A DNA stretch of 38,698 nt from Candidatus Pelagibacterales bacterium (lineage in GTDB: Bacteria > Pseudomonadota > Alphaproteobacteria > Pelagibacterales > Pelagibacteraceae), in assembly GCA_004213215.1 (NCBI GenBank), contig SHAO01000003.1, forward strand, positions 1 through 38,698. The letters are read 5' to 3'. Numbering within the stretch: the stretch's first letter is position 1; each line of letters begins with the position of its first letter. The notes beneath the pieces are model-generated. The model searched no databases. It had not been told where the DNA came from and saw only the letters and a program-made list of their open reading frames with translations. Of the stretch, positions 24,795-30,115 are shown piece after piece. The translations under genes were made by a program, and so were the position numbers.

Positions 24795-25463
24795 TTAATT
24801 AATATTTTTATACTTTAAAAGTTTATATGCTGCATCTTGCTCGGCTTGCTGTTTTGAATTTCCTATACCAATAAAACGTTTACTATTTTTTATAGAAACA
24901 GAAATTTTATAAGTTGGATTATGCTTTGGTCCATCAGAAAAAACTAAACGATACGAGGGAAGTTTTTTATAATTTTTAAGTGAATGTTCTTGTAATTTGG
25001 TTTTCGAATCTAAAATTGTAATAGTGGATTTGTCAATATTTTTTTTCCAAATCTTGAGGATAAAATCTTTAACATAATTAAATCCTTGATCAATATATAA
25101 AGCTCCAATAAGTGCTTCACAACAATCACTAATAATCTTTTCATCTTTTTTATTAATTCTCCTTTTTTTATCTCCAACTAAAATATATTTATGTAAACCA
25201 ATAGACCAACCTACCTCACAGCAAATCTTTCTATTAACAAGACTAGCAAACCTTTTGTCCAAAACTCCTTCACTTTCATCTGGATAAAGATCAAAAAGCT
25301 TTTTTGACAAAACTAAACCAATAACTCTATCACCAAGAAACTCAAGTTTTTCATTATTATTTTTTTGATTGGCACTTTTATGTGTTAAAGATAATTTTAA
25401 TAAAGATTCTTTTTTAAATTTAATTTTTAAATCTTTTTGAAATTTATTAATATTTGTGATCAT
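24795..25463 (-). CDS. rnc: Ribonuclease III
   Basis: LSLTHKSANQKNNNEKLEFLGDRVIGLVLSKKL; CEALIGALYIDQGF; C-terminal dsRBD KSVSIKNSKRFIGIGNSKQQAEQDAAYKLL-like sequence. Confidence 0.96.
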   Translation of the reverse strand: MITNINKFQKDLKIKFKKESLLKLSLTHKSANQKNNNEKLEFLGDRVIGLVLSKKLFDLYPDESEGVLDKRFASLVNRKICCEVGWSIGLHKYILVGDKKRRINKKDEKIISDCCEALIGALYIDQGFNYVKDFILKIWKKNIDKSTITILDSKTKLQEHSLKNYKKLPSYRLVFSDGPKHNPTYKISVSIKNSKRFIGIGNSKQQAEQDAAYKLLKYKNIN

Positions 25464-26188
25464 AGGATTTTTTTAAAGAAACGTTTAATTCTTATACTTT
25501 CATTCCAGTTCCAAAATTTAAAAATTGATCCCTTTTTTTTATCATTAGAAAAAAAGATAAATTGAGCTTTACCAACAAAATTATTAATATGAACATATCC
25601 AACAGATCCTAGAAAACGACTGTCTTTTGAACAATCCCTATTGTCACCCATAAAAAAATAACTATTTTTAGGAACTATAAATTTATCGCTATATATCATT
25701 GTTCCATCTTTTCTATATGAAGCTATATATTTTATTCCATTAGGAAGAGTTTCTTCAAACAAATTACTTTCTAAAATTTCATTTCCACAATATATATTTT
25801 TCGTTTCTGCTAACTTTATTTTCTTAACTTTCAAATTATTTATATATAGATCTTTATCAACGATTTGAATAATGTCTCCCGGTAAACCGATCAATCTTTT
25901 GATATAATCTGTTCTATTATCCTCTGGAGTTTTAAACACAATAACATCTCCTCTTTTGGGAAATTTTGTGAAAATTCTTTCATCTAAGACTCGTGGACTA
26001 AATGGAAAAGAATGTTGGCTATACCCATAAGAATATTTTGATACAAATAAACGATCACCAACTAATAAATTGGGTTCCATTGAAGATGAGGGAATATAAA
26101 AAGGTTGAAAAAAAAAACTTCTAATAAAAATAGCAATTAATAAAGCCAAAAGTAAAATTTTAACATTTTCTATAATTTTTTTTTTCAT
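25460..26188 (-). CDS. lepB: Signal peptidase I
   Basis: FFQPFYIPSSSMEPNLLVGDRLFVSKYSYG (catalytic Ser); RGDVIVFKTPEDNRTDYIKRLIGLPGDII (Lys); FFMGDNRDCSKDSRF. Confidence 0.96.
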   Translation of the reverse strand: MKKKIIENVKILLLALLIAIFIRSFFFQPFYIPSSSMEPNLLVGDRLFVSKYSYGYSQHSFPFSPRVLDERIFTKFPKRGDVIVFKTPEDNRTDYIKRLIGLPGDIIQIVDKDLYINNLKVKKIKLAETKNIYCGNEILESNLFEETLPNGIKYIASYRKDGTMIYSDKFIVPKNSYFFMGDNRDCSKDSRFLGSVGYVHINNFVGKAQFIFFSNDKKKGSIFKFWNWNESIRIKRFFKKIL

Positions 26189-26581
26189 TAGTTATAAGAT
26201 ATTATCACTGTAGCTTGTGCCCAAGGCTCATCATCGGACAGCGACAAATATATAAAGTACTTTTTAGTCTTAATTTTTTTTTTTTAAAAAAGCATCAGTA
26301 GATCCACTTAACTTTATAGATGGTTTACCAAACTTATTATTCAATACTTCTATATTTTTAAAATCTATACCTTTTCTGATACCTGTACCCAATGCTTTGC
26401 TTAGAGCTTCTTTAGCAGCAAATCTTTTAGCATAGAATGCCGAAGAATTTTTTTTCTTTTCACAATAAATAATTTCATTTTTTGAAAATATTCTTTTTTT
26501 AAAAGCTTCACCATTTTTCCTTAATGATTTTTTCATTCTTTTAACATTGACAATATCTGTGCCTATACCAAAAATATTCAT
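26188..26581 (-). CDS. acpS: Holo-[acyl-carrier-protein] synthase, interrupted by a +1 frame change at a 12-A homopolymer (track ORF covers only 26270..26581)
   Basis: Frame 0: MNIFGIGTDIVNVKRM...RFAAKEALSKALGTGIRKGIDFKNIEVLNNKFGKPSIKLSGSTDAFLKKKN*. The +1 frame right after the A-tract: IKTKKYFIYLSLSDDEPWAQATVIISYN*, the conserved AcpS C-terminus; its TAA overlaps the lepB ATG (TAATG). Confidence 0.92.
26274..26285 (-). repeat. 12-A homopolymer on the coding strand of acpS at the frameshift site
   Basis: Plus strand TAATTTTTTTTTTTTAAAAAAGC; coding strand GCTTTTTT-AAAAAAAAAAAA-TTAAGAC. Confidence 0.95.
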
Positions 26582-26582
26582 A

Positions 26583-27308
26583 TTAACTTTTAATTATATT
26601 TTTAAACTTTTTAATTGAGCTTTTTAAACCAACGAATAGAGAATCTGAAATAATAAAATGACCAATATTAAGTTCAGAAATATATTTAATTTTTGAAATC
26701 GTGTAAGCCGATTTATAATTAAGTCCGTGTCCTGCGTGTGCTTCCATACCAATTTTTACAGCGTATGCTGCTGATTTTTTTATCTTTAAAAATTCTGATT
26801 GTGACCTTTTTCTTTTATTAAACAAATTACAATATTTTCCCGTATGAATTTCAACAGCGTCGGCACCAAGTATTTTTGAGGTTGTTATATCAAAAATTTT
26901 TGGTTCAACAAATAGAGAAACTCTTATTTTATTTTTTTTTAGTGAAATAATTATTTTTCTTAACAAATTTTTTTGGGAATAAAGATTTAATCCACCTTCA
27001 GTTGTGAGTTCTTTTCTTTTTTCTGGCACGATACAAACATAATCGGGTTTATATTTTTTTGCTATTTTTAACATTTCTCTTGTGGGAGCCATTTCTAAAT
27101 TTAAAGGTATTTTTATTTTTTTTTTTATTGCTTTTAAATCACTCTCTTTAATGTGTCTTTTATCTTCTCTTAAATGAATAGTTATGGAATCTGCACCACT
27201 TTGTTCAGCTATCAAGGCAGCCTTCAAAGGTTCAGGGTAAATTTCACCTCTTGCATTTCTAATAGTAGCAACATGATCGATGTTTACACCAAGTCTTTTA
27301 TTAATCAT
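26583..27308 (-). CDS. pdxJ: Pyridoxine 5'-phosphate synthase
   Basis: RLGVNIDHVATIRNARGEIYPEPLKAALIAEQSGADSITIHLREDKRHI; GMEAHAGHGLNY; ELNIGHFIISDSLFVGL. Confidence 0.97.
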   Translation of the reverse strand: MINKRLGVNIDHVATIRNARGEIYPEPLKAALIAEQSGADSITIHLREDKRHIKESDLKAIKKKIKIPLNLEMAPTREMLKIAKKYKPDYVCIVPEKRKELTTEGGLNLYSQKNLLRKIIISLKKNKIRVSLFVEPKIFDITTSKILGADAVEIHTGKYCNLFNKRKRSQSEFLKIKKSAAYAVKIGMEAHAGHGLNYKSAYTISKIKYISELNIGHFIISDSLFVGLKSSIKKFKNIIKS

Positions 27309-29602: not shown

Positions 29603-30115
29603 TCAAGATTTATTAACCTTTAATATAGAGTTCTTGTCCTCTTTTGGAAGTTTATCTATCAAGACACTTATAGACTCTTTAGTTTCAGGGTGTTTCCAAT
29701 GAGGAAGTATTTCTTTAATTGGGTATAAAACAAAATTTCTATTAATAAGCTGAATGTGGGGCACTTTAAATTCTAAATCTTTATACTTAAAATTTATAAT
29801 TTGACCTTTGTAATCAATTATATCTATATCACATGTGCGGGGATCATTTTTTTTTTTTCTCTTCCTTTCAAGAGACTCCTCAATAAAAATTAATACGGAG
29901 GCTAAATCTATCGGGGGAAGATCTGTTTCCATTTCAGCTATAATATTAATAAACTTAGGGTTTTTTTCATTAGGATATGAAGGAGATTCATAAAAACTAG
30001 ATTTGCTTTTTAATTTAATTTTATATTTTTCTAGAGCAGAAACTGCTATCTCAATATTCTGAAATCTATCTCCAAAACTAGATGGTAAATTTGATCCTAA
30101 ACCTAATAAAATCAT
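29603..30115 (-). CDS. folK: 2-amino-4-hydroxy-6-hydroxymethyldihydropteridine pyrophosphokinase
   Basis: ILLGLGSNLPSSFGDRFQNIEIAVSAL; FINIIAEMETDLPPIDL; RKRKKKNDPRTCDIDII; VPHIQLINRNFVLYPIKEI. Confidence 0.94.
   Translation of the reverse strand: MILLGLGSNLPSSFGDRFQNIEIAVSALEKYKIKLKSKSSFYESPSYPNEKNPKFINIIAEMETDLPPIDLASVLIFIEESLERKRKKKNDPRTCDIDIIDYKGQIINFKYKDLEFKVPHIQLINRNFVLYPIKEILPHWKHPETKESISVLIDKLPKEDKNSILKVNKS

Follow-up and report, generated by a model that had tools for sequence, protein, structure and literature searches.

The acpS Locus and Its A12 Tract

The window analysed here, which is the whole stretch of 38,698 nucleotides, is contig C23 of a 979-kb draft genome (G000; 53 contigs, 78% complete) of a member of the Pelagibacteraceae (SAR11). 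Its minus strand carries, in this order, the genes pdxJ (26583..27308), acpS, lepB (25460..26188) and rnc, with pdxJ as the operon neighbour upstream of acpS. The product of lepB is signal peptidase I (TIGR02227, 160.5 bits), and acpS, an essential fatty-acid gene, encodes the holo-ACP synthase AcpS.

As assembled, acpS (26188..26581, minus strand) is broken in its reading frame. The zero-frame ORF (26270..26581, minus strand) encodes 103 amino acids ending in AFLKKKN, with the Pfam domain PF01648 over residues 5-95, and its stop codon lies directly after a tract of 12 adenines (A12; T12 on the plus strand) at 26274..26285. The coding strand around this tract, which is preceded on its 5' side by T6, reads GCTTTTTTAAAAAAAAAAAATTAAG. 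In another frame, the minus strand from 26274 to 26191 is open and encodes the C-terminal tail IKTKKYFIYLSLSDDEPWAQATVIISYN, of which a tryptic peptide begins YFIYLSLSDDEPWAQATVIISYN. Shortening the tract from A12 to A11 gives a single AcpS of 130 amino acids ending in this tail, and its stop codon overlaps the lepB ATG at 26188 by one A, forming the sequence TAATG. The splitting of the gene at A12, its restoration to one intact ORF by A11 and the overlap with lepB had all been described in the initial annotation of this DNA, and the coordinates given here bear them out.

The joined protein is an AcpS. With one A removed, it matches TIGR00516 over its full length with 112.7 bits (cut-off 59.8) and aligns end to end with solved AcpS structures. 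The 103-aa ORF also scores above the same cut-off (99.2 bits), with only residues 3-93 matched.

Conservation of acpS in Relatives

The gene was compared with that of 16 relatives from the same genus or near it, with one genome per species, all of them belonging to species other than the source. In all 16 acpS is intact, and the homologous tract, whether A10, A11 or interrupted, keeps the frame, with codons such as TTA AAA AAA AAA ATT (A11), CTT AAA AAA AAA ATT (A10) or forms with other bases in the tract. Since the relatives are in frame at A10 or A11, the window carries one extra A with respect to the in-frame A11. Consistently, a homology survey placed the frame break at 26276-26289 against all 16 relatives, each alignment being split at the tract. 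As a separate observation, individual acpS genes of genus relatives (L002-L019) may hold several A tracts of 9-13 bases, whose lengths vary between species and which are in frame where the gene is intact.

The tail is 74-89% identical to that of the 16 relatives, which agrees with the earlier proposal that the downstream frame encodes the conserved AcpS C-terminus. As these relatives align across the break and the tail is homologous, the downstream frame is not a chance open frame. The mean amino acid identity reaches 84% in the tail versus 72% in the upstream part, and the differences fall mostly in third codon positions (0.12/0.09/0.55 for the three positions here; 0.14/0.09/0.43 among the relatives). 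Judged by this pattern, purifying selection on the acpS tail is strong and matches that in the intact relatives.

A profile search with PF01648 detected a single match in the 78% of the genome that is available, and thus no second phosphopantetheinyl transferase (PPTase). In the family, nearly every genome that has any match has one, and two are almost never found. By comparison with relatives, acpS is a functional, single-copy gene under selection and is not decaying. A search for the exact acpS locus in viral contigs gave no match.

Broken and Unbroken Poly-A Tracts

The genome of the source was rebuilt from stretches, comprising all but the last 670 bases of contig C7. It contains 135 A/T tracts of 10 bases, 47 of 11 bases, and 12 of at least 12 bases, so that the acpS tract ranks among the longest. 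Frame breaks were surveyed by tblastn in about 1 Mb of DNA from relatives of the genus, leaving out the indel-ridden genome G019. Among the homology-covered coding tracts, none of the 184 with 10-11 bases was broken, and neither were 16 of the 18 with at least 12 bases. The remaining two are the A12 described here and another A12 in the acpS of G007. The fact that 16 of 18 such long tracts were assembled in frame indicates that consensus errors are not commonplace at A12, which counts against the explanation of the break as a simple indel that is favoured below.

Other internal coding tracts of A12-A13 in the source genome are also in frame according to a coding-frame model or to inspection. 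They lie in folK, nadD and genes for NifS-like, YmdB-like, hemF-like, XdhC-like and glycosyltransferase-like proteins, the names other than folK being a reading of the protein sequences. The tract of folK (29603-30115), an in-frame A12 at 29847..29858 on the minus strand, serves as a control of equal length on the same contig. No complete copy of folK was found to be broken in any genome; that of G004 is matched in part, lies at the edge of a contig and contains one stop. The second control, rnc, was broken in G019 only. In that genome, a region of contig C2 at about 51-70 kb (L201, L202) shows many breaks in conserved genes, several of them away from long homopolymers, and looks to be a portion of low assembly quality.

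The acpS of G007, a different species within the genus, is broken at a different A12 (L118:7581-7592, on G007:C116), in the region encoding YCEKKK, where either A13 or A10 would restore the frame. A third broken acpS was found in G276, from another genus of the family, at an A10 tract in which A9 would fit the frame (L263; G276:C7:26122-26509). The three breaks are not shared, being located at different positions of the gene or in different genera, and all of them occur in fragmented drafts. In every single-contig genome of the family that was examined acpS is unbroken, which is weak evidence because these genomes belong to other genera.

Two further interpretations of the survey were considered and rejected. 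Both breaks at tracts of at least 12 bases lie in acpS, which might suggest a special target, but this gene contributes 8 of the 18 tracts in a sample biased to acpS contigs, and the excess is not significant. General indel noise in the source assembly does not account for the break either, as within the 186 kb covered by relatives homology supports no frame break other than that of acpS; the other break calls in those 186 kb were read as gene junctions or attributed to a fused ORF in G019. Apparent frame changes that the coding model reported at A8-A10 proved to be mostly junctions of tightly packed genes, tracts of at least 9 bases having been inspected singly. A second apparent poly-A break in the source genome was noticed at G000:C44:1643-1651, where a C-methyltransferase (Methyltransf_13/23/14) is split at an A9 and its Methyltransf_14 domain continues in the other frame.

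Origin of the Extra Base

The domains of MutS and MutL (MutS_I, PF01624; DNA_mis_repair, PF01119) were detected in none of 60 Pelagibacterales relatives, of which 19 reach a completeness of at least 90%; of 14 control genomes, 11 were positive with the same profiles. Published work on single amplified genomes of SAR11 likewise reports that mutS and mutL have been lost (PMC12374537). Where MutS and MutL are absent, poly-A runs should slip in vivo too, and a cellular origin of the slippage is plausible.

According to the best reading of these data, the observation of a split acpS is correct and its explanation is ordinary, namely an indel of one base in an A tract that is among the longest in the genome. 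It is proposed, with a probability of about 0.8, that A12 is a non-fixed +1 homopolymer indel, either an artefact or a transient allele, in an ordinary acpS. An ancestor with A11 would have gained one A without its fixation in the species, and the slip would be that of a polymerase, either during amplification or sequencing or inside the cell. Polymerase slippage produces breaks of this kind, tied to tract length and each confined to a single genome. The chances that A12 arose from a slip in amplification, sequencing or assembly are about even, and its origin as a real but recent and transient allele, through replication slippage in a MutS/MutL-less lineage, is suggested tentatively. We infer that A12 is not the stable sequence of the species, and no recoding device is needed to explain it. 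If the allele were transient, low-level slippage rescue could soften its cost.

Of the readings put forward in the initial annotation, a single-base error or recent indel is thus the best supported, given that breaks within the genus appear only at the longest tracts, differ between genomes and are confined to fragmented drafts. Slippage rescue stands as a possible but improbable reading, and recent decay is contradicted by the evidence considered next.

Alternative Explanations

A stable A12 whose expression depends on slippage has been considered as the main alternative. RNA polymerase slippage on T6A12, with a net change of −1 (to A11) or +2 (to A14), would yield some in-frame acpS mRNA, which would be enough because little of the enzyme is needed. 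The essential, single-copy nature of acpS and the selection on its tail fit this proposal, as do eight genes of Blochmannia vafer that are broken in this way (PMC3017870) and the 12-50% of corrected transcripts given for endosymbionts in the summary of PMC5009743. Moreover, the rate of slippage climbs exponentially with run length (PMC5574713). However, the break is shared by none of the 16 relatives, the other A12 genes of the source genome are in frame, and the direction required is the disfavoured one: the frame needs −1 or +2, whereas single-base insertions dominate homopolymer slippage in both E. coli and Buchnera, even if deletions increase with length in Buchnera (PMC5574713). In addition, an examination of poly-A runs, presumably shorter than A12, showed no rescue by deletion with E. 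coli RNA polymerase (PMC6260861). Slippage-dependent expression is consequently regarded as unlikely.

That acpS has recently become a pseudogene, compensated by a second PPTase or by import, would explain the broken frame of the assembly, but is very improbable. A second intact acpS, which would have spoken for a pseudogene, is lacking from the available 78% of the source genome, and the tail bears no sign of decay. Even more doubtful is a functional protein of 103 amino acids with a dispensable tail. The truncated form still scores as ACPS with 75 bits, the match reaching as far as position 92 of the 111 in the profile; nevertheless, the lost tail contains 9 of the 37 invariant alignment columns and is more conserved than the rest of the protein. 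By alignment in the present analysis, it also includes the residues corresponding to Ser102 and His103 of the Bacillus anthracis AcpS, which contact phosphates of the bound CoA part (PMC3447402). The selected tail, the single copy and the conserved columns together make both a dead and a truncated but working AcpS unlikely.

Least credible of all is a +1 ribosomal frameshift at AAA AAA AAU UAA joining the two frames, since a pause at the zero-frame stop directly 3' of the tract is conceivable but all 16 relatives read straight through and keep no out-of-frame site that could be a programmed shift site, and poly-A sites usually favour −1 shifts, which do not restore the acpS frame here.

Implications

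Under the preferred explanation of a non-fixed indel, annotators of SAR11 drafts should not take single-base breaks at tracts of A12 or longer for gene loss. What retains interest is whether out-of-frame alleles of essential genes circulate in SAR11 populations devoid of mismatch repair. Should A12 prove to be present in the cells, the tolerance of slippage that insect endosymbionts display would gain an example from a free-living organism that lacks mismatch repair. The acpS gene, which holds several long A tracts, would then be well suited to measuring this tolerance. A broader scenario, put forward as speculation with little likelihood, is that in free-living SAR11 without MutS/MutL the A tracts of acpS drift in and out of frame, cells with a broken allele being kept alive by RNA polymerase slippage until it reverts; out-of-frame essential genes would in that case exist in natural populations beyond endosymbionts.

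Comparison with Known Systems

With one A removed, the protein resembles the AcpS of group I phosphopantetheinyl transferases (TIGR00516, PF01648) in its full-length match, and the gene shares with those of its relatives the operon position beside lepB and rnc, the one-base frame break being its sole difference.

Transcriptional slippage at poly-A frameshifted endosymbiont genes was described by Tamas et al. (2008), as cited in PMC3017870, and endosymbionts of similar AT content rescue such genes according to PMC3017870 and PMC5009743. The acpS gene resembles these frameshifted genes of Buchnera and Blochmannia in several respects: it belongs to an AT-rich genome, a long A tract in it has gained or lost one base, and it is otherwise intact, with no sign of decay or of relaxed selection downstream. 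On the other hand, breaks in the endosymbionts can be conserved across populations or species, while that of acpS is private to one draft genome, as the 16 relatives are in frame and the breaks of G007 and G276 affect other tracts. Corrected mRNA has been measured in the endosymbionts, and the comparison here is one of DNA sequences; the source organism is free-living and without MutS/MutL.

A conserved out-of-frame layout with a shift site, characteristic of programmed ribosomal frameshifting, is absent from the 16 relatives, which are all in frame. As in homopolymer contingency (phase-variable) loci, the length of a homopolymer turns the reading frame of acpS on or off. Such loci typically switch surface or restriction genes under selection; acpS, in contrast, encodes a housekeeping enzyme, and its tracts are ordinary Lys codons of an AT-rich genome.
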